20,286 nt of DNA, taken from positions 1 to 20,286 of IMG/VR virus record IMGVR_UViG_3300027733_002377. The stretch is one strand, 5' to 3'. The stretch is from a virus. The notes beneath the pieces are model-generated. The model was not told where the DNA came from. It did not search any database and was given only the letters and a program-made list of their open reading frames with translations. Shown piece by piece: positions 2,045 to 20,195 of this stretch. A program made the translations under genes and the position numbers. Within the stretch, counting starts at the first letter, position 1. Each line of letters opens with the position of its first letter.

Positions 2045-2233
2045 ATGCTAATAGTAGAAGTAAAAAAAGACGGAATTGAAAAAGCCCTGAAAACTTTAAA
2101 ATCTAAAGTTATCAAGACTAAGCAAAATCAAATTTTATTTGATAGAAAAGAATTCGTTAAAAAATCTGTTGTAAGACGAGCTCAGATATTAAAAGCCTCG
2201 TATGTTGAAAAAAAGAAAAATTCTTTAGATTGA
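2045..2233 (+). CDS. rpsU: Phage-encoded 30S ribosomal protein bS21
   Basis: The 62-residue basic protein matches the bS21 pattern from end to end: MLIVEVKKDGIEKALKTLK (N-terminal strand and first helix), a KTKQ turn, then RKEFVKKSVVRRAQILKASY and a Lys-rich tail. Bacteroidota bS21 proteins begin MLII.VK.GE.I..ALK and are about 63 residues long, so this is the Bacteroidota form. bS21 binds the 30S platform near the 3' end of 16S rRNA; in Bacteroidota it helps hide the anti-Shine-Dalgarno sequence. Phage copies of bS21 are known from other viruses. It is on the plus strand inside a minus-strand head operon, and its last 9 bp overlap the end of the convergent gene at 2225-2923. No Shine-Dalgarno precedes it (only A/T, with GTAATAAT before the ATG), which matters because host rpsU in flavobacteria is thought to be controlled through one. 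Confidence 0.88.
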   Translation: MLIVEVKKDGIEKALKTLKSKVIKTKQNQILFDRKEFVKKSVVRRAQILKASYVEKKKNSLD

Positions 2234-2923
2234 TTCCTCTAAGTTTTTTAACTTAAGAAAATTCAATTGGTCAAATTTTTCAGTTTTTAATCTGTCTATA
2301 GTTTCAGACAATTTTGTCTTTAACTCAAATTCCTCTTCTTTTTCTAAGATGACGTTAAGTTTACTGATTGCGCTTTCACGAATAGTTTCAAACTTGTCCT
2401 CAAGAGATTTTGAATCTTCAGAAATTAATTGAAGAAATTCTTTTTTAGATGATTCATCAAGATTTTCAACATATTTGTTTAAAGTTTGGTTTGCAATACT
2501 AACCATTGATTTCAATGGAATATTGATAGATTCTTTAACAACATTATTTGTTGAAGTTAACACACTTGTAATATTTTTTTTGGAATTAACCCTCTCTAAC
2601 AAATTTAATTTATTTGTATAAACAAGGGCATCAATATCAGAATATCTATTCTGAACATTCTCAGATAAACTTCTTGGTAGTTTAATACTTGGCAGTAATT
2701 TTTGAATTAAATGAATCCCCTCTTCTAAAAAATCTTTAGCGTCAGACTCGTTTAGTCCTTGAGGAGTACTCAATTGGTCGTACAAAGAATACAATTTAGA
2801 CATAGTTTTGTTGTTCAAAACATTGTGTTTGAATTCTTTTAGAGATTTCTTAAATTCTTTTTCATCTTTGTAAGATTCAAGAAGATTGTTTTCTATTATG
2901 GATTTGATTTTTCCGAAAGTCAT
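2225..2923 (-). CDS. Helical protein in the prohead-core position (gp67/gp68-like by synteny)
   Basis: This 232-residue protein is predicted to be almost entirely helical, charged and Leu/Lys/Glu/Ser rich, with no Cys and no membrane segment. It follows the portal gene directly (24 nt gap) and precedes the prohead protease, the place where T4 keeps the core proteins gp67 and gp68. Its N-terminus contains IIENNLLES (residues 9-17), two overlapping (I/L)xE sites of the type cut by T4 gp21, and the same signature (LIESNLLEG) occurs near the C-terminus of the adjacent portal protein. This supports a role inside the prohead, but no sequence match to T4 proteins is visible and it is longer than gp67 (80) or gp68 (141). 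A TATTTATA box lies 16 nt ahead of the ATG. Its tail overlaps the bS21 tail by 9 bp. Confidence 0.6.
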   Translation of the reverse strand: MTFGKIKSIIENNLLESYKDEKEFKKSLKEFKHNVLNNKTMSKLYSLYDQLSTPQGLNESDAKDFLEEGIHLIQKLLPSIKLPRSLSENVQNRYSDIDALVYTNKLNLLERVNSKKNITSVLTSTNNVVKESINIPLKSMVSIANQTLNKYVENLDESSKKEFLQLISEDSKSLEDKFETIRESAISKLNVILEKEEEFELKTKLSETIDRLKTEKFDQLNFLKLKNLEESI

Positions 2924-2939
2924 TATAGTGTGTTTTCAA

Positions 2940-2947
2940 TATAAATA
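2940..2947 (-). promoter_or_regulatory. TATTTATA box between portal and next gene
   Basis: Exact TATTTATA on the minus strand, directly after the portal stop codon and 16 nt before the next ATG. Confidence 0.5.
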
Positions 2948-4804
2948 TTAGGAGTTTAGTAACTTATCCAATTCTTTTGAAATTTCTCCTAAAGAATCTT
3001 GTCCTTGACCTAAATCTAAAAATGTTGACCCTTCTAATAAATTACTTTCTATCAACAAATTCATATTTTTCATTCTTGATTCTGGTGTAACGGCAGCTTC
3101 TCCACCTTCAGGTGCTCCACCTTCTGCTGGCGGTGGTGGTAAGCTTTCTTCACCTCCTCCTGCTGGCGGTGGTGCTGTTTCAAAACTACCTCCACCTCCA
3201 AGTGTTTCTTCACCACCAGTAGATGCCGCAGCATTAGCGGTTGCTCCTGATGGATTACCGTATAATTTGTCAATATTATCAAATAAACCTGTTTTAGTAA
3301 TAACTGTAGGTGTTGCTTTAAGTTCCTCACCAACAGCTCTTTCAATTCTTTGTTGTTGTAAATCCAATCTAATTTCTTCGTCAGACCAATTGAAAATGTG
3401 TTTTTTAGCCCAAGTAGAAGATGTTGGTTGAATACCATTTCCTGGGTCCGCAACTAAATCTTTATACAATAAAACTTTTTCTTTCCAAACGTCAATTTTT
3501 AATAAATCTGCTTGTGTAGATGGATTAGATAAACCTAATGTAAAGTTTTGTAATTCATCCTCAAACCCTAATAAGAATAAATGAACGATTGCAATTTTAT
3601 TTAACTCAGCAATCATACTTTTTTGAATTCTGTTGATTGTACGAGCAAAACGGATATCTTGTAATGATAAGTTTTTACCATCGCCAACAACTTCCTCAAA
3701 TCCTAAGAATGCCTTAGGAACACGAAGTGCTGTTAATAATTTCTTTTGAATGTATTCAATATCGGCAATCTCTGATAAGTTTGTTGCTCCAGGTAATGTT
3801 GTAATTGGGTCTGGTGCCGCAGGGTCACGAACAGGAATAAAGTAATCTTGGTCAACCGCCATTTGGTTGAATCTCATATCCACATTACCTGTTTTAGAAT
3901 CCACAATTTGTTCTCTTTTGAACTTGTTGGCAACACGGTTTACATATGCTTCAACGTCATCATCATTCATGTTACCCACAAATACTTTAAACATTCTTCT
4001 TTCAGGTGCTCTTGATGTACGATAGATTAACATCGCATCTTCAGACAATAATAATTGTTTCCAAATACGTCTTGCCTTTTCCAACATAGAGGTACCATAA
4101 GGAAGTTTTCTGTCATCACCTAATAATCTAAAGTGAGCAATCTCCCATGATTGGAATTCCATGTTTCTGTTTTTCCAAGTAAAGTGAAGAGCCTTTTTAT
4201 TCTCATCTTTTTCTTGTGTAATATCAACAGTAATTTTGGCAGTAACACCAACCTCATGACGTTCAATTTCAATTGTTGGTAATTGTTGGCAACCAACAAT
4301 CCCTTTTTCAGGGTCTAATTTAAGGTAAACAAAGTTATCACCATACTTACAAGTGTTTCTTGTCCACATTGGTAAGTTGGTGTTAATGTCTAAGTTGTTA
4401 TTAAATAAATCAGCTAATACTGACTTAATACGTTTTGATTCTGAGTAAATTTGAAGAATAAAACCATCTTCGTTTGTTGTTGTAGATTCTTCAGAGTAAA
4501 TGTCTAATGCCGCTGAAATCTCAGGAGTATACTCCATTGATTCATAGTCATATTGAGCAGATAATCTTGATGGTTCATAATAAATCGCTTGAGAGTATAA
4601 ATTGTTTTCAACTTTAGCCCATTGATTTGTTAAATAAAATGTTTGTTGTGCTTGAAGTTTTTCTCTTTCGTAATCATCACGATTTGGGGTACGCAAAAGT
4701 TCTTTTTTATCAAACTTAAAAGTCGGATAATCTTGCTTTAATAAAGAGTTTGGTCCAAATGTTTTGGACAACCTCTGCCATACCGTTAAATTATTATCAC
4801 TCAT
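2948..4804 (-). CDS. Portal vertex protein, gp20-like
   Basis: The 618-residue protein is a T4-type portal: the segment SAQYDYESMEYTPEISAALD (82-101), CKYGDNFVYLKL (152-163), the FRLLGDDRKLPYGTSMLEKA region (226-245), RAPERRMFKV (265-274) and the FLGFEE segment (366-371) are typical of the family. Twelve copies form the ring at one head vertex through which DNA is pumped and to which the neck attaches. Compared with T4 gp20 (524 residues) it is longer at the C-terminus: residues 517-574 are a Gly/Pro/Glu/Ala-rich linker, followed by a short helical end containing LLIESNLLEG (583-592), which looks like prohead-protease sites. It lies between the terminase and the core genes; a TATTTATA box is 28 nt ahead of the ATG. 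Confidence 0.96.
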   Translation of the reverse strand: MSDNNLTVWQRLSKTFGPNSLLKQDYPTFKFDKKELLRTPNRDDYEREKLQAQQTFYLTNQWAKVENNLYSQAIYYEPSRLSAQYDYESMEYTPEISAALDIYSEESTTTNEDGFILQIYSESKRIKSVLADLFNNNLDINTNLPMWTRNTCKYGDNFVYLKLDPEKGIVGCQQLPTIEIERHEVGVTAKITVDITQEKDENKKALHFTWKNRNMEFQSWEIAHFRLLGDDRKLPYGTSMLEKARRIWKQLLLSEDAMLIYRTSRAPERRMFKVFVGNMNDDDVEAYVNRVANKFKREQIVDSKTGNVDMRFNQMAVDQDYFIPVRDPAAPDPITTLPGATNLSEIADIEYIQKKLLTALRVPKAFLGFEEVVGDGKNLSLQDIRFARTINRIQKSMIAELNKIAIVHLFLLGFEDELQNFTLGLSNPSTQADLLKIDVWKEKVLLYKDLVADPGNGIQPTSSTWAKKHIFNWSDEEIRLDLQQQRIERAVGEELKATPTVITKTGLFDNIDKLYGNPSGATANAAASTGGEETLGGGGSFETAPPPAGGGEESLPPPPAEGGAPEGGEAAVTPESRMKNMNLLIESNLLEGSTFLDLGQGQDSLGEISKELDKLLNS

Positions 4805-13105: not shown

Positions 13106-13504
13106 TTAAGATTTCAATTTTTTCAATTGGTCTCGTAGTTCAATTGCCATTTCAAAGTTTTGTTCCTTAATTGCTTTTTTCAATTCAAGTTCAACTTTCT
13201 CAATTTCTTCTTGATTTAATTCCAAGTTTTTAATTTGGTCTCTTAACTTAACTGCCGATTCAAAATCTTCAGTTTCAATTGCCCTTTGAAGTTTAATCTT
13301 AAGGTATTCTTCTTTACTCATTTGTTTTGACTCATCTAAATCTGATAAATCAAATACCTTATAGTAACTTGTTACTTTATATGAACCATCAGGTGATTCA
13401 TAACTTTTTTCTGACCAATCCGTTTTATTGAATTCTTCCATCATTTTTTCATAGCGAGCCATCAGCTCATCAAAATTGAAATTAAAGTTTCTTCTTCCAA
13501 ACAT
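13106..13504 (-). CDS. Protein with two UVR motifs, possible Clp adaptor
   Basis: The 132-residue protein has an aromatic N-terminus (MFGRRNFNFNFDELMARYEK) and two tandem UVR motifs: about 70-93 (LQRAIETEDFESAVKLRDQI) and 106-130 (LKKAIKEQNFEMAIELRDQL). UVR motifs are helical hairpins for protein-protein contact in UvrB/UvrC, ClpC and the ClpC activator McsA. The gene lies head to head with a ClpC-like ATPase that itself has a UVR motif, so a partner or adaptor role is a reasonable inference. It lacks the Cys zinc fingers of McsA and all UvrB or UvrC catalytic parts. A TATTTATT box lies 60 nt upstream. The UVR call is firm; the role is inferred. Confidence 0.85.
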   Translation of the reverse strand: MFGRRNFNFNFDELMARYEKMMEEFNKTDWSEKSYESPDGSYKVTSYYKVFDLSDLDESKQMSKEEYLKIKLQRAIETEDFESAVKLRDQIKNLELNQEEIEKVELELKKAIKEQNFEMAIELRDQLKKLKS

Positions 13505-13618: not shown

Positions 13619-13702
13619 TATAAAAAAAATTACTGACAATTTGACAAATTATTTGGAGATGTACAGAATTTGTTGTTACTTTGTAAAAAATCTATAAAAT
13701 AT

Positions 13703-15718
13703 ATGAACGACTTAATGGACGACGACGACAAAATGATGAGTAAGAAATCAAAATCATCTGCCGATTCAAACACACCTGTATTGGACAATTTCAGTAGAGA
13801 CCTAAATAAACTAGCTGAAGCAGGTAAACTTGACCCCGTTATTGGTCGTGACCGAGAAATTTTAAGGATAGCTCAAATCCTTTCTCGTAGAAAGAAAAAT
13901 AACCCTATTATTATTGGTGAACCTGGTTGTGGTAAAACAGCACTTGTTGAAGGATTAGCAATCAAAATTGTAAATGGTGATTGTCCTCGTAACTTGGTGG
14001 ATAAACGTATTGTTAATCTTGACCTTACATCAGTTGTTGCGGGTACAAAATATCGTGGACAATTTGAAGAAAGAATGAAGGTGATTATTGAAGAACTTCA
14101 GTCAAATCCAAACATCATCGTATTCATTGATGAGATTCACACATTGGTTGGTTCTGGCAACTCTTCAGGTTCAATGGATGGTTCAAACATCTTCAAACCC
14201 GCATTGGCACGTGGGGAAGTTCAATGTATCGGAGCAACAACTTTAGATGAGTTCCGTAAAAATATTGAAAAAGATGGAGCATTGGAACGTAGATTCCAAA
14301 AGGTAATCGTTGAACCATCTTCAGTTGAAGAAACAATCCAAATCCTTAAAAATGTTCGTGACAAATACGAATCATTTCACAAGGTACATTACAGTGATGA
14401 AGTTATTGAAACTTGTGTTAAATTGGCTGACCGTTACATCACCGACCGTGAGTTCCCTGACAAAGCCTTTGATATCTTGGATGAGGTTGGAGCAAGAATG
14501 CAAACTGAATTAAAAGTTCCTGACGTTATTGAAGAATTGAAGAAAAAAGCTGCGGACATCAAACAACAAAAAATTGATGTGGTTAAAAAACAAAACTATG
14601 AACAAGCAGCTGAACTTCGTGACAAGGAGAAAAAATTGTTAATGAAACTTGAGCAAGAAAAAATTAAGTTTGAAGAACAATTGGCTAAAGAAAAACAATT
14701 GATTTTATTGGAACATGTTTACGATGTTGTATCAAATATGACCAAAATCCCTGTGAGCAAAATGAGTGTTGATGACACAAAATCATTGTTAGACTTAGAC
14801 AAAAACTTAATTGGTAAAGTTATTGGTCAAGACAATGCGGTTGTTAAGATTGCAAAATCAATCAAAAGAAATCGTTTGGGTATTAAAGACCCTAATCGTC
14901 CAATCGGTTCATTTGTATTCTTGGGTTCAACAGGTGTAGGTAAAACATACTTGGCAAAACAATTGGCTAAAGAAATGTTTGGTTCTGAAGATTCACTTAT
15001 CCGTGTGGATATGTCTGAATACCAAGAAAAACACAGTATCTCTAAATTGGTTGGAGCCCCTCCAGGATACGTAGGTTATGAGGAAGGTGGATTGTTAACT
15101 GAAAAGGTTAAGAACAAACCATATTCGGTTATCTTGTTTGATGAGGTTGAAAAAGCTCATAAAGATGTGTTCACGGTTTTACTTCAAATCCTGGATGATG
15201 GTCACGTTACGGATAGTTTGGGTCGTAAAATTAACTTTAAAAATACCTTGATTATTTTGACTTCAAACTTGGGTGTTAAAAAACTACAGGACTTTGGAAC
15301 AGGTATTGGTTTCTCATCTAACTCGTATAGTAACGAAGAAGCTAAGAAACAAATGTTGATGAAAGAAATGAAGAATTTCTTCTCTCCTGAGTTCTTAAAC
15401 CGTATTGATGACACAATTGTATTCAACTCACTATCTCAAGAAGATATCAAGAAGATTACAGACATTGAATTAAAGAGATTGGTGGCTCGTCTTGTGGACA
15501 TGAAATACAATATCAGTTATGATGATTCATTGGTTGAGTATTTGTCTAAGATTGGATTTGATGAATTGTATGGGGCTCGTCCATTGAAAAGAGCAATTCA
15601 AGATAAGGTTGAGGACCTATTGTCTGAAGAAGTTCTAACAGGTAAGATGATTGAGGGTAAAACCTATCTTATCAAAGTGGTGGATGAACAGGTGGTTGTC
15701 CAAAAGAAAGGACGATAA
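13703..15718 (+). CDS. ClpC-like double AAA+ unfoldase without N-domain
   Basis: From the ATG at 13703 the 671-residue protein has, in order: an acidic tail (1-25), AAA+ domain 1 (Walker A GEPGCGKT 72-79; Walker [10 protein letters not shown] 138-146; Arg fingers R196/R197), a short middle part with one UVR motif (about 286-312, [15 protein letters not shown]), and AAA+ domain 2 (Walker A GSTGVGKT 408-415; Walker B VILFDE 476-481; Arg finger in EFLNRID; sensor 2 GARPLKR 624-630). The loop GTGIGFSS (532-539) matches the IGF/VGF loop by which ClpA/ClpC dock on ClpP, so it should feed a protease rather than act as a ClpB disaggregase. The duplicated Clp N-domain (about 150 residues) is missing. 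No clpP is in the window, so host ClpP is the likely partner. A TTG at 13670 would add 11 residues; ATG is preferred. A terminator follows. Confidence 0.95.
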
Positions 15719-15763: not shown

Positions 15764-16528
15764 ATGAAAGAACTAATCAGAAAAGTATTATTAGAGACCG
15801 TTAAAGACGGTAAAGTTATCTGTGATGATTGTGGATGGTCTTGGGACATTTCTGCTGGTGGTGATGACTTATATGTGTGCCACAAGTGTGGTCATGATAA
15901 CACACCAAAGTCTCAATCTAATTTAAATAAACTATTAGAAAAATTCAAAAATAATTTTCCTGAAGAATTAAAACCAAAGGTTGATGCAATTGAAAAGTTT
16001 ATTGTGAACTATATTCAAGACCACAATTTTACCGTTAAGTTTCTTAATTCATGTTCTACAGGTTTTGCTGGTGTTAGAACCAAAGACCAAATCATTATTT
16101 GTTCACCAAATGCAATGACAACTCTTGGTGATTTTATCTACACCATATTCCACGAAATAAGACATGAAGAGCAAATGGATAAAAACAGGTTGGGATTAGA
16201 CAATCCTTTGACCGATTACGACTTAAATGATTTTGAAAAATTGTCTCAAAAATATTGGGAATTAGAAATGGATGCAGATAGATTTGGAAAAGAAATGATT
16301 GCCAAACTTATAATCAAACTTGGATTACCTATGGATGTATCAAAAGAAAATTTAAGATTATCTCCATACATTCAAAACTATCCTTTAGCATCAAAAATGA
16401 TAATGATGTCTTTACAACAAATTGTTAACGGAATTAAAGACATAAAAAAATCGGGTGAAGAATATACTGATATTCAAGACCACCCGATGATAAAAAGACA
16501 TTTAGATAAGTTAGAAAACTTAATTTAA
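15764..16528 (+). CDS. Zinc-ribbon HExxH metalloprotease-like protein
   Basis: This 254-residue protein joins a zinc ribbon to a protease-like domain. The ribbon has C20, C23, C39 and C42 in the context CDDCGWSWDIS...YVCHKCGHDN, a module common in phage proteins. The second domain has IFHEIRHEEQ (HExxH, H130-E131-H134), and an acidic helix WELEMDADRFGKE (165-177) that can supply the third zinc ligand, as in gluzincins. The substrate is unknown. The N-terminus MKELIRKVLLE/T (1-12) ends in an LLE site like T4 capsid-targeting sequences, so it may be packaged in the head and cut by the prohead protease. It starts 5 nt after a TATTTATA box, and its end overlaps the convergent peptidase gene by 4 bp. 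The protease call is likely but activity is not proven. Confidence 0.85.
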   Translation: MKELIRKVLLETVKDGKVICDDCGWSWDISAGGDDLYVCHKCGHDNTPKSQSNLNKLLEKFKNNFPEELKPKVDAIEKFIVNYIQDHNFTVKFLNSCSTGFAGVRTKDQIIICSPNAMTTLGDFIYTIFHEIRHEEQMDKNRLGLDNPLTDYDLNDFEKLSQKYWELEMDADRFGKEMIAKLIIKLGLPMDVSKENLRLSPYIQNYPLASKMIMMSLQQIVNGIKDIKKSGEEYTDIQDHPMIKRHLDKLENLI

Positions 16529-17364
16529 AAAACTACACTACTTCTCCAATTGTAATTAACTGATTTTTTGTGGTGTAATTTATTTCCAAGACCAACAATC
16601 ATTTGTTTTCCCATATCAATTCCGTTAAAAACATCCTCAACAACAACGTATTCATTTCTTGTGTGATAATCGTAATATCCAATTGAAATGTTAATACAAG
16701 AAAAATCAAACTTGCCTCTTAACGCATAAACATCTGTATAAGGATGAACCATGTATTCCATAAAATTATTGTCCATTCCTTCAGTTAAAACTTTATCACA
16801 TGTTTCAAAAAACTCAGTGTTTCTGTCAAACAAAACTTGACCATAACATTTTTCTGTAATCATCCAGTTTTCAGGGGCATCAAATTGGATTCCGTATCCA
16901 ACATTTTTAAAAAATTCCTCACTTGCTTTAAGTGAACCATGACAACCTGTTTCTTCAGACACGAAAAACGCCGCTTTAACATTTGGTAAATCTTGTAATA
17001 ACGTCAAACAAGCAAAAACACCACATTTGTCGTCACCACCAATACCAGTTGGGTTTCCTTCGTCATTGTAAGCCTTGTAAGATAATTTTTCTTCCCCTTG
17101 GGCATTCATCAACATTTCTTCACGAATGTTAATTGTGTCAATATTATGGACAGTATCTGTGTGGGAAATAACACATGGGAAATAAAAATCTTCAGGTAAT
17201 TCTGATGATTCTTGTTTTGTTGCGTATACGTTATTGTATTCATCAACAAAATGTGGTATACTATTCTCAGTTAACCAATTAACCAAAAATGCAACCATTC
17301 TTTCTTCTTGATATGTCTTTGTTGGAACGCTTAATACGTTTTTAAGTAATTCTATATTTTTCAT
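16525..17364 (-). CDS. M20-like zinc peptidase (peptidase T type)
   Basis: The 279-residue protein carries the metal-binding pattern of di-zinc aminopeptidases: SHTDTVH (67-73; H68, D70), GIGGDDKCG (107-115; D111), SEETGCHGS (136-144; E137/E138), PYTDV (208-212; D211) and YDYHTRNEYV (231-240; H234). It is shorter than cellular peptidase T or PepD (about 400 residues), which suggests that the dimerisation (lid) domain is missing or reduced. Such enzymes remove single residues from short peptides in the cytoplasm. Next to a Clp unfoldase and a tmRNA it could finish the breakdown of peptides, which is inference. The ATG lies 4 nt after a TATATTTG element, so the mRNA may be leaderless. It is convergent with the metalloprotease gene. 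Confidence 0.88.
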   Translation of the reverse strand: MKNIELLKNVLSVPTKTYQEERMVAFLVNWLTENSIPHFVDEYNNVYATKQESSELPEDFYFPCVISHTDTVHNIDTINIREEMLMNAQGEEKLSYKAYNDEGNPTGIGGDDKCGVFACLTLLQDLPNVKAAFFVSEETGCHGSLKASEEFFKNVGYGIQFDAPENWMITEKCYGQVLFDRNTEFFETCDKVLTEGMDNNFMEYMVHPYTDVYALRGKFDFSCINISIGYYDYHTRNEYVVVEDVFNGIDMGKQMIVGLGNKLHHKKSVNYNWRSSVVF

Positions 17365-17368
17365 GAAG

Positions 17369-17400
17369 CAAATATAGTAAATTTATTATTAAACTTCAAA
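17369..17400 (-). promoter_or_regulatory. Bacteroidota-type promoter for the M20-like peptidase
   Basis: On the minus strand TTTG (17400-17397), a 20-bp spacer, and TATATTTG (17376-17369) match TTTG...TAnnTTTG. The -33 part lies in the last codons of the upstream gene. The -7 element is only 4 nt from the ATG, so transcription would begin at about the start codon. Confidence 0.55.
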
Positions 17401-19203
17401 TAAATCAAATAATTGTGGCTGATATAATAAATTGTTGAAATTTTCTTCAGATAATTTTAGTCGGCGCATTCCTTTATAATGTTTTTCAACCATTATGGTA
17501 AGTTTCATCTCTTCTCGGTCAAATCCTTCAACTTTAAATGAAACATTCTTATCAATAGGTAATTTATTCCATTTATTTAATCCAAATTTTTTAACAATTC
17601 TATTTCTAAATGATAAAAATTCTTTAATTTTTTCTCCGCCAGCATCTTCATCCTCATCAAGTTTTTCTAAAATTTTTTCAAATTGTCTTTCAACAACATT
17701 ATTGAATGCGTTTGAATCAAAATTATCATAATCTTGATATTCATATGAATTTTCTTGCCAACCACCTAATCGTCCTGTACCTGAATATTCAACAATTTGA
17801 TTAAACAAAGAGATTACATCTATTTTTGGTAATTGTAGTCTTGTTGACCACATTAATAAGTTGGCTGCGGTTGTTGCAATTTGGTCATAATCTCTAACAA
17901 GTGTAAACCCAATTGACTCTAAAAAATTGTTAACTTCATTCTCAATTGAATTTCTTGCGGTTGTTAACATCTCACTATTTTTTTCGGACGCATAATCACC
18001 AAGAATCCAATCCATTTCATCTTCAAATAAACTTAATAATGTTTCTGATAATTTAACTTTATAATCATCATTATCTAAATCAAATTCTTCTCCAGGTAAT
18101 ATTAATTCGGCAATTTCTTTTAACTTTTCCTTATTTTCTTCATTAAGCTCACCATAGACTACATAACCTTGTTTAAAATCATCTTCAATAGTATAGGAAT
18201 CCATAAATTCATAACTACCATAAGTTGAATTAATGGCATTTAAAAACCATTGGTCATCTTCAGATATATCTAAAGTTTTAAAAAACTTGTCGTCTTCATC
18301 AAAATCAATTACAATAGTACTTTGACCTAATGGGTCTGAAGGTTTAACTTTAAGTATAGCATCGTCAGAGTCCTCCAATTCACGATAATCAATTTTACCT
18401 CTTGTAAACGCTCTAATAGCCTTAATAAATTCACCCGAACCTATTAACTCATCAATTAAGTCATTTTGGTTTGGGAAAGTTTCTCTTAAATCATCCAAAG
18501 AAACTAATCTATCCTGAGCATTATAAACTTCGGTTTTTCTATCTTCCGTATTTCTATACAACGCCATTTTGTTATTTTCTTTCTTCTTAATGAAATAATA
18601 TAACAAACCTGTTTTAATGTATTTTTCAAAATATCCTGAACTACCAGAGCTAGATGTACACCATTTGGTATTTGCACCATAATAACAAGACGCAGCATGA
18701 GATTTTGGTCTAATTACCAAAACATCATCATCTTCATATAATCTTTCGGCTTGAGATTTTAACTCTCTTTCTTTTTCTCTTTCAGTTTTCTTACTATCAA
18801 CAATCTCCATCAAAGTTCTAATGAACTCAGGATTTTCATATTGACTAATGTCTTTAAAAGATTTGGCAATCCCCTCAATGTTTGGGACCATTCCGTTTCT
18901 TTCTCTAAAAATTGTTTCAGCTTTCCAAATATCGTCTTCACTTATTCTATTAACATTATTATGGAACCATGGAATGACCATACTCAAAATGTCTCTAATT
19001 GCGTCTTGTTGTGTGACGTTAAGACCTCCCTTTTGTCCTGCAAGTTGCGGGATTATCTTTTCAAGTTGTTTGGCTATATAATCAACGTATTTGTACCCTG
19101 TTGGGTCAACAGATAACATACGGTCAATAAATGAACCATCATATTCAAACCTCTGTTTTAGACGTTTTGAGACATCTTCTTTCCTACCTTCTATTATTAT
19201 CAC
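17389..19203 (-). CDS. Large phage protein with GANTKWCT motif (604 aa)
   Basis: The function is unknown. The start is GTG at 19203; it is supported because the N-terminus MIIIEGRKED is shared with the gene starting at 20220. After a helical part (about 10-150) comes YEDDDVLVIRPKSHAASCYY, then GANTKWCTSS (176-185) and YFEKYIKTGLLYYFIKKK, a segment I recall from many phage and phage-like proteins, with C173, C182 and H169 as possible active residues. The rest (about 260-604) is acidic and rich in Asp, Glu and aromatic residues with DED and EEN runs. IIIE/G at the very start looks like a prohead-protease site, so it might be an internal head protein. It is flanked by the peptidase and the tmRNA. 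A TATTTATA box is 13 nt upstream. Confidence 0.82.
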   Translation of the reverse strand: MIIIEGRKEDVSKRLKQRFEYDGSFIDRMLSVDPTGYKYVDYIAKQLEKIIPQLAGQKGGLNVTQQDAIRDILSMVIPWFHNNVNRISEDDIWKAETIFRERNGMVPNIEGIAKSFKDISQYENPEFIRTLMEIVDSKKTEREKERELKSQAERLYEDDDVLVIRPKSHAASCYYGANTKWCTSSSGSSGYFEKYIKTGLLYYFIKKKENNKMALYRNTEDRKTEVYNAQDRLVSLDDLRETFPNQNDLIDELIGSGEFIKAIRAFTRGKIDYRELEDSDDAILKVKPSDPLGQSTIVIDFDEDDKFFKTLDISEDDQWFLNAINSTYGSYEFMDSYTIEDDFKQGYVVYGELNEENKEKLKEIAELILPGEEFDLDNDDYKVKLSETLLSLFEDEMDWILGDYASEKNSEMLTTARNSIENEVNNFLESIGFTLVRDYDQIATTAANLLMWSTRLQLPKIDVISLFNQIVEYSGTGRLGGWQENSYEYQDYDNFDSNAFNNVVERQFEKILEKLDEDEDAGGEKIKEFLSFRNRIVKKFGLNKWNKLPIDKNVSFKVEGFDREEMKLTIMVEKHYKGMRRLKLSEENFNNLLYQPQLFDLFEV

Positions 19204-19233: not shown

Positions 19234-19264
19234 TTTGGAATTTCCATATTTATTGTTACCTTTG
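19234..19264 (+). promoter_or_regulatory. Bacteroidota-type promoter for the tmRNA
   Basis: TTTG at 19234-19237, a 19-bp spacer and TACCTTTG at 19257-19264 match TTTG...TAnnTTTG, with the same spacing as the Clp promoter. A plus-strand TATTTATT (19247-19254) lies within the spacer, so a second, phage-type start is possible. The start site is expected near 19270, about 100 nt ahead of the mature tmRNA. Confidence 0.68.
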
Positions 19265-19295
19265 TACAACAAATCACAGGTGGCTCCCTTAATAG

Positions 19296-19311
19296 TTAAG
19301 GCTGACCTTAA
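19296..19311 (+). other. Hairpin in the tmRNA 5' leader
   Basis: TTAAGG-CTGA-CCTTAA forms a 6-bp stem with a four-base loop. The region 19265-19368 has no open gene; it is the leader that RNase P should remove from the tmRNA precursor. I find no tRNA in it. Confidence 0.4.
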
Positions 19312-19368
19312 GCATCTGACGTAAGTCTATACAGGGGGCGAAAGTGATTTATTGTTCTTTGAAAATAT

Positions 19369-19751
19369 GGGGGTGCATGGTATTGATTGGCATGGTTGGG
19401 GATAGGTGGCACGTCGGAGCTGAATTAACTTCGTTATCAACTGGTTTAAAACAATCAAATGGCAATACTTTTGCTAAGCTTGCTGCTTTAGGTCTTACTA
19501 AAGAAGAAGCTGTTGTTACTATCTAAGGTAGGGAACAACAACGGGGTCGGTGAACATTAACCTAGCAACAGAAGTTCTCACACAGGTGGAAAAATGATTA
19601 AACCTTAAATTGAGTCGTCCATTGGTGGTTAGTTTACGATGGTGAAGAACAAACTGAATATTTTGGAACATTAGAAAATGTTATCCTAAACGTGTAGTCA
19701 TTTATTGTCAAAATGAGCAAGACGAGGGTTCGAATCCCTCCACCTCCACCA
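19369..19751 (+). ncRNA. ssrA: tmRNA (transfer-messenger RNA), phage-encoded
   Basis: The ends form a tRNA-like acceptor: GGGGGTG (19369-19375) pairs with CACCTCC (19741-19747, one G-U), followed by A and an encoded CCA (19749-19751). The T arm is GAGGG-TTCGAAT-CCCTC. Helix 2 is supported by GCACGT (19409-19414) pairing with ACGTGT (19690-19695). A first pseudoknot can start with CGGAG (19415-19419) and CTTCG (19429-19433 region). The middle holds an open tag frame that stops at TAA 19524-19526, and the RNA is followed by a terminator. The size (383 nt) is normal. tmRNA with SmpB frees stalled ribosomes and adds a peptide tag. The open frame across 19344-19526 is therefore not a separate protein gene. 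The exact 5' and 3' ends are from base pairing. Confidence 0.93.
19461..19526 (+). other. Predicted tmRNA tag-peptide frame
   Basis: Reading from GGC (19461) gives 21 residues beginning GNTFAKLAALG and ending KEEAVVTI before TAA at 19524-19526. Bacteroidota tags usually begin with Gly and end with (A)LAA; here an FAKLAA-like part is present but is followed by 12 more residues. The stop codon sits in the loop of a 5-bp stem CTATC-TAA-GGTAG (19519-19531), the same arrangement as helix 5 in E. coli tmRNA, which supports this frame. The resume codon itself cannot be fixed by sight; GCA at 19462 in the next frame would give AILLLSLLL. Confidence 0.55.
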
Positions 19752-19783: not shown

Positions 19784-19811
19784 ATTCACATAATTTTACT
19801 ATATTTTGAAA

Positions 19812-20195
19812 ATGGGAACAGATTGTAATATATGTAGTACTAAATGTTTTGGTAGAGAAGGTTACCATGGCAGTTGTTGTACTTTAGAAGATAGAGATTG
19901 GATTATTGGACCTCACCATGACACTGAAGATTTTATTAAAAAACTATCATTAAAGTTAGGTAGAGAAATTCAAGAAGAAGAAATTTTTATAAACTATGAT
20001 GAAGGTAGTAAATTGTTTCCCAACAAATCAACTTGGCAAAATCCAGAATCTTATCCTGCTCTTAGAGTTGATTTTTTTAATCCAAGACTTCCTTGTATTT
20101 TTTATAACACAAAAATAAAGGCATGTACAATGTATGACATTCGTCCTAATACTTGTGAAATATATGAATGTGATTACTTGGCAAGTAATACATAA
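19812..20195 (+). CDS. YkgJ-type cysteine-cluster protein
   Basis: This 127-residue protein has the Cys pattern of the YkgJ (CxxCxxCC-type) family: C5, C8, C12, C22 and C23 at the N-terminus (CNICSTKC...GSCC), C95 in RLPCIFY, C105 in KACTMYDIRPNTC (with C115) and C120 in YECDYL. The RPxxC...C end is typical of the family, which is thought to bind zinc or an iron-sulphur cluster; the biochemical role is unclear. The ATG at 19812 is preferred over a TTG at 19806. It follows the tmRNA terminator by 28 nt, so it needs its own promoter; the AT-rich sequence TATATTTTG just ahead of the ATG is a poor match to either promoter type seen here. Confidence 0.82.
   Translation: MGTDCNICSTKCFGREGYHGSCCTLEDRDWIIGPHHDTEDFIKKLSLKLGREIQEEEIFINYDEGSKLFPNKSTWQNPESYPALRVDFFNPRLPCIFYNTKIKACTMYDIRPNTCEIYECDYLASNT

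Follow-up and report, generated by a model that had tools for sequence, protein, structure and literature searches.

A conserved phage tmRNA tag family without an LAA end, linked to a phage ClpC: a candidate phage-specific degron

The window analysed here, that is, the whole stretch of 20,286 nucleotides of viral DNA, encodes a tmRNA whose tag of 21 residues carries VVTI at its C-terminus and belongs to a family of long tags found in T4-like Bacteroidota phages next to a ClpC-like unfoldase. On balance, the comparison of sequences makes it probable that the tag acts as a phage-specific degron which delivers proteins to the phage ClpC, working with phage or host ClpP.

The tmRNA gene and its tag reading frame

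19369 to 19751, plus strand: complete tmRNA gene with encoded CCA (Rfam RF00023 and stem read from the sequence)
19461 to 19526, plus strand: tag reading frame from the resume codon GGC (19461-19463) to TAA, GNTFAKLAALGLTKEEAVVTI (comparative frame, codon statistics, A at -4)
19511 to 19540, plus strand: helix 5 hairpin whose apical loop contains the stop codon (folds of the window and of relatives)

Scoring 90 bits where the cut-off is 47 and covering model positions 1-374 of 374, the Rfam RF00023 match identifies this gene as the single complete tmRNA of the window. In its acceptor stem, read from the sequence as GGGGGTG/CACCTCC and followed by ACCA, the G3-U70 pair known from alanine tRNAs is preserved. 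As regards the four pseudoknots of a tmRNA, the alignment to RF00023 is poor in its middle part. ARAGORN made no tmRNA call for 19369-19751, and the tmRNA region had zero DNA matches among 50,697 annotated phages. The silence of ARAGORN could be taken to indicate a non-functional or host-derived remnant; however, the full-length RF00023 match, the intact acceptor stem and CCA, the presence of a promoter and the conservation of the frame across divergent phages leave such a reading with almost no probability.

The sequence-only reading that preceded this analysis had put the stop codon into the loop closed by a stem of 5 bp at 19519-19531. This stem was indeed found (19519-19523 paired with 19527-19531, the loop being the UAA of 19524-19526), nested within a longer hairpin in which 19511-19517 pairs with 19534-19540. 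In the folds of relatives' tmRNAs the stop again lies in or next to a hairpin, the letters of which have changed.

The same reading had proposed the frame 19461-19526 and comparison with phage tmRNAs as the means of fixing the resume codon. Two pattern scans of IMG/VR retrieved 61 loci with homologous tags, hereafter family A, comprising 50 different nucleotide sequences and 44 different peptides, the tags being 20-23 residues long in more than 60 phage tmRNAs of that database. Among the 33 distinct family-A tags of 21 residues, pN/pS was 0.63 in the tag frame; the two other frames gave 0.94 and 1.35, and each of them carries stops in 33/33 sequences. The resume codon lies at nt 91-97 of the family-A tmRNAs, preceded by an A at position -4 in 54 of 54 cases and by a pyrimidine at -5 in 53 of 54. 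In E. coli, A86 sets the frame four bases downstream, at G90 (PMC2481249), and the A at -4 in family A follows the same rule. Judged from these comparative statistics, the tag frame is under purifying selection and a chance origin is excluded. The proposed frame thus held, and, being common to dozens of phages, it does not have to be argued from a single sequence.

Three other explanations of the frame and its end were discarded. A long frame arising by chance was ruled out by the codon statistics, the alternative frame AILLLSLLL was rejected as the other frames show no conservation, and a sequencing error as the source of VVTI was rejected because this end recurs in other contigs (L004, L009, L405, L413, L466, L469, L595 and L606).

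A tag family without an LAA end

The genes of the window are T4-like as a set, and some of the best terminase matches are to Flavobacterium phages. The host tag GE[NT]NYALAA was found in at least 120 genome-contig stretches, nearly all titled Bacteroidota. It shares with the phage tag the initial Gly and the same trans-translation step, but it has 9 residues and an LAA end, whereas the tag of the window has 21 residues and ends in VVTI.

After the addition of later loci, 70 distinct family-A tags could be compared. Ala is the last residue in 66, following small or hydrophobic residues, three end in VVTI and one in VTVS; the usual end is VxVA, and the canonical (A)LAA degron occurs in 0/70. VVTI is accordingly a local variant, which the window shares with L004, L009 and some other contigs. 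The earlier claim that the window tag lacks an LAA end was thus borne out, and its relatives, which were to reveal a normal LAA end if the sequence were in error, revealed none. The accompanying idea of an LAA-type tag prolonged by a tail did not survive the comparison, which shows family A to be a separate conserved tag family. An inner KLAA or FAKLAA as a relic of the host tag was likewise rejected: the matching residues vary (KLEA, KLSA, KLQA, KMAA, NMEV), in contrast to the nearly invariant GL at positions 11-12, meaning that the FAKLAA-like part of the window tag is incidental.

The conserved portion of the tag is its N-terminal and middle GNTFxKLxxLGL stretch, with Gly11 in 70/70, Leu12 in 69/70, Met or Leu at position 7 in 70/70 and Lys6 in 54/70 tags. 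Conservation of the first half argues, as far as sequences can tell, for a binding partner beyond the C-terminus. No match to the tag peptides was obtained by tblastn among the 50,697 annotated phages, and in the open literature searched (outside which lie most subscription papers and all bioRxiv preprints) neither the family-A tag nor its ClpC linkage was found reported.

The composition of the tag end bears on two other readings of its role. The phage tmRNA might merely raise rescue capacity by ordinary trans-translation, its divergent degron still being read by host ClpXP or a different host protease, e.g. FtsH or Lon. FtsH may accept non-polar tails, and FtsH and Lon favour non-polar C-termini, which together with the prevalence of Ala ends lends support to this proposal. 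E. coli tag variants, e.g. LVA, remain degradation tags in use (PMC9382460), which also speaks for it. The proposal is nevertheless rather unlikely, since none of the tags ends in LAA, the clade of the window ends in TI, the GNTFxKLxxLGL stretch would be superfluous for a simple C-terminal degron and the linkage to ClpC described below would be left unexplained. The lack of a canonical degron would also suit ribosome rescue without proteolysis, in which phage proteins tagged on stalled ribosomes escape host ClpXP, or the host protease is spared from flooding, and the tagged chains stay intact; ribosome release alone suffices in some phage growth assays (PMC2481249). An undegraded tag, however, would need no conserved sequence of 21 residues; the pN/pS of 0.63 and the nearly invariant GL imply a binding partner, and the phage ClpC and ClpP encoded alongside argue for proteolysis, which makes this second reading improbable.

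Linkage of the tag to a phage Clp unfoldase

13670 to 15718, plus strand (start maybe ATG 13703): ClpC-like AAA+ unfoldase with GIGF loop (Pfam, PDB match, loop)
13106 to 13504, minus strand: small protein with two UVR motifs, possible ClpC partner or adaptor (Pfam UVR, 52.7 bits)
15764 to 16528, plus strand: putative metallopeptidase with zinc-ribbon-like start and HExxH motif, HEIRH (motif from translation)
16525 to 17364, minus strand: M20-family-like peptidase (Pfam Peptidase_M20, 23.9 bits, just under cut-off)
17389 to 19203, minus strand: 604-residue protein (no Pfam match; conserved cluster)

The unfoldase of the window has two AAA modules, a UVR-type middle domain and an IGF-type loop, and among PDB entries it matches ClpC best, the alignment starting at ClpC residue 146. 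The Clp_N domain is absent from it according to Pfam; this domain was found in the ClpC of one relative (L145). A Clp ATPase is encoded in 29 of the 30 records with a family-A tag, usually 2.5-5 kb upstream of the tmRNA on the same strand (3.7 kb in the window). In the exception, L176, the T4-type portal is missing too, and the record is probably a fragment. When the search was reversed and started from Clp, 79 new loci were fetched, and all 67 that reach far enough downstream hold a family-A tmRNA on the same strand, at a distance of 2.5-4.5 kb, with 2.5-4.2 kb in the 18 that were measured. Clp and tmRNA are neighbours within one phage clade, and the association is therefore not a matter of many independent events; the portal tree of these phages has long branches, and the records are mostly fragments.

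Of 19 family-A records, 11 encode a ClpP with intact Ser-His-Asp (175-195 bits), and L004, the nearest long relative, is one of them; no ClpP gene lies within the 20-kb window. The best NCBIfam models for this ClpP are those of cellular ClpP, with scores below the cut-offs and far above the head-maturation models. In L139 and L181, SmpB adjoins the tmRNA. The suggestion that the phage Clp could be the partner of the tag is thereby strengthened by linkage in both directions of search. The more specific proposal paired the phage Clp with host ClpP; many relatives, L004 among them, encode a ClpP themselves.

Other genes around the unfoldase and the tmRNA recur in relatives. The gene of the two-UVR protein is divergent from clpC and kept beside Clp, its product being weakly similar to the McsA C-terminus (NCBIfam McsA, 35 bits, below cut-off). 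The M20-like peptidase shows weak PepT-like matches and has homologues in five related phage regions; together with the 604-residue protein, it recurs between Clp and tmRNA. The HEIRH protein had no Pfam match above cut-off and is kept in the nearest relative. Directly 3' of the tmRNA, at 19806-20195 on the plus strand, lies a gene, conserved in L004, whose small product matches, below cut-off, a zinc- or iron-binding domain of the CxxCxxCC-like type. A separate observation was made in L276, where a phage DnaK-like chaperone (2121-3998, minus strand, assigned by its N-terminus) is encoded near clpC, the M20-like peptidase and the tmRNA.

This neighbourhood also bears on the notion that the tag is some other ligand, for instance one that inhibits or re-targets host Clp, or one that addresses truncated chains to ClpC acting as a disaggregase without ClpP. 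Such a role would account for a first half of the tag that is hydrophobic and conserved, for the records in which ClpC occurs without ClpP and for the McsA-like UVR protein adjoining ClpC. It seems decidedly improbable, given that every phage ClpC with a readable loop has a ClpP-docking loop of the IGF type (IGF, VGF or LGF) and that the records without ClpP are mostly fragments.

A possible route for tagged proteins

In the degron model, the tmRNA of T4-like Bacteroidota phages would replace the host GENNYALAA-type tag by the 21-residue phage tag. The RNA would be loaded by host (sometimes phage) SmpB and by the host alanyl-tRNA synthetase, and translation on stalled ribosomes would restart at GGC 19461 and end at UAA 19524. 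The phage ClpC-like unfoldase would then thread the tagged proteins into a ClpP that many relatives make themselves and that otherwise comes from the host, and nearby peptidases may complete the recycling. The RNA, its frame, their conservation, the Clp linkage, the docking loop and the ClpP of relatives are the parts of this model that can be read from the sequences. The model further supposes that the tmRNA is expressed and tags proteins, that ClpC recognizes the tag and that host ClpXP recognizes it poorly or no longer.

Several observations weigh against the model, among them the linkage within a single phage clade, the position of ClpP outside the 20-kb window and the tags of family B and of L101/L120 described below. 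Most family-A tags end in Ala (VxVA), the -TI of the window being exceptional, and host ClpX might still accept the Ala-ended tags. Furthermore, Firmicutes ClpC usually needs adaptors, bound by its N-domain, and the window ClpC has no adaptor-binding N-domain. Taken jointly, a tmRNA with a non-LAA degron, an adaptor-domain-free ClpC reading that degron, ClpP, sometimes SmpB, and amino-acid-returning peptidases could tentatively be viewed as a self-contained phage line, operating apart from that of the host during infection by large Bacteroidota phages; the chances of this wider reading are put at somewhat below even.

Relation to known systems

The window ClpC resembles Firmicutes ClpC (ClpCP) in its D1/D2 AAA+ modules, UVR-type middle domain and ClpP loop, and differs from it by the missing N-terminal adaptor-binding domain. 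With regard to the tag, the closest parallel is the extended ssrA tag of Mycoplasma and Mesoplasma, read by Lon according to the passages that cite Gur and Sauer 2008 and Ge and Karzai 2009 (in PMC3985003 and PMC9382460). As in the phages, the tag described in those passages is longer, has a non-ALAA end and probably evolved alongside another protease; there, the partner is the cellular Lon, in organisms where ClpXP is absent. The phage tag is unrelated to it, phage-encoded and tied to phage ClpC (often with ClpP), while the host keeps LAA-type tags. Moreover, Mycoplasma-type tags are long, end in AFA and are read by Lon, and the corresponding ends are VVTI in the window and VxVA in family A.

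Among mycobacteriophages, Bxz1 also has a long tag. Phage tmRNAs have been described in the mycobacteriophage Bxz1 group, Bacillus phage G, methylophage Melnitz and huge phages (PMC4131195, PMC9004378, PMC7162821), where, as here, a complete tmRNA is carried by the phage, sometimes with SmpB; these papers do not appear to describe any conserved non-LAA tag family or any linkage of one to a phage Clp. Phage tmRNAs on the one hand, and phage ClpP, ClpX and ClpA on the other, were already known separately. The degron model offers a testable answer to why a phage would bring its own tmRNA, namely that what stalled ribosomes have made then goes to the phage protease rather than to that of the host. 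If true, only Mycoplasma would precede it as a case in which a tag has switched protease, and among viruses it would, to our knowledge, be the first. It would also provide a natural pair of tag and unfoldase that might not depend on bacterial ClpXP and could serve as a degradation tool.

Other long phage tags

A second long tag family (family B), exemplified by DEMSTMTFDDLMAFVGADYAVAA and ending in AVAA, was observed in L024, L075, L112, L132, L156, L167, L170, L189, L193, L224 and other loci. It is strongly conserved (pN/pS 0.26 for tags of 23 residues), and a phage Clp was found in 0/16 of its records, which are short (35-65 kb). The tags of family C, e.g. GESYIDADGNITFNGQSVEFADLELV and GASYITADGDIVLNGQPVEVAEPAFA, have about 26 residues and end in ELV, ELA or AFA; they occur in L143, L164, L207, L698 (G079) and L702 (G074), relatives whose portals are related. 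No Clp was found in the records L143 and L164, and the idea that family C reflects a loss of Clp was dropped, as two longer family-C records encode a ClpC that has an N-terminal extension and about 818 residues. This pairing of a further extended tag (ends ELA/AFA) with a phage ClpC speaks for the degron model. Two distant phages of about 270 kb, L101 and L120, combine ClpC, ClpP and SmpB with a 24-residue tag, GNTNFWSLVNESVNAPVTEELLAA, ending in LLAA, and are the 2 of about 19 tmRNA records with other tags in which a Clp ATPase was found. There is consequently no strict rule connecting tag end and Clp, because these two phages have an LLAA end together with Clp and the family-B records searched had no phage Clp.

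Promoter and structured RNA leader

19234 to 19264, plus strand: Bacteroidota-type promoter TTTG-N19-TACCTTTG (pattern match)
19271 to 19350, plus strand: structured RNA leader of about 80 nt, outer stem AAATCAC...GTGATTT (alignment, compensatory change)

The promoter motif occurs 6 times in the window against 1.6 expected, and upstream of 29 of the 61 family-A tmRNAs against 0.5 expected after shuffling. Between promoter and tmRNA lies the leader RNA, whose core (GGTGGCTCCCTTAATAGTTAAGGCTGACCTTAAGCATCTGAC...GTCTATACAGGGGGCGAAAG) is almost invariant and which is far more conserved than the tmRNA itself, with compensatory change in L220 and L593. It had no credible match in Rfam. Altogether 40 viral contigs contain it, in front of a tmRNA or of tRNA clusters; besides the window, its carriers include L004, L031, L045, L048, L196, L210, L220 and L584-L614. 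In L586, L589, L604 and L613 the leader heads phage tRNA clusters instead of a tmRNA.
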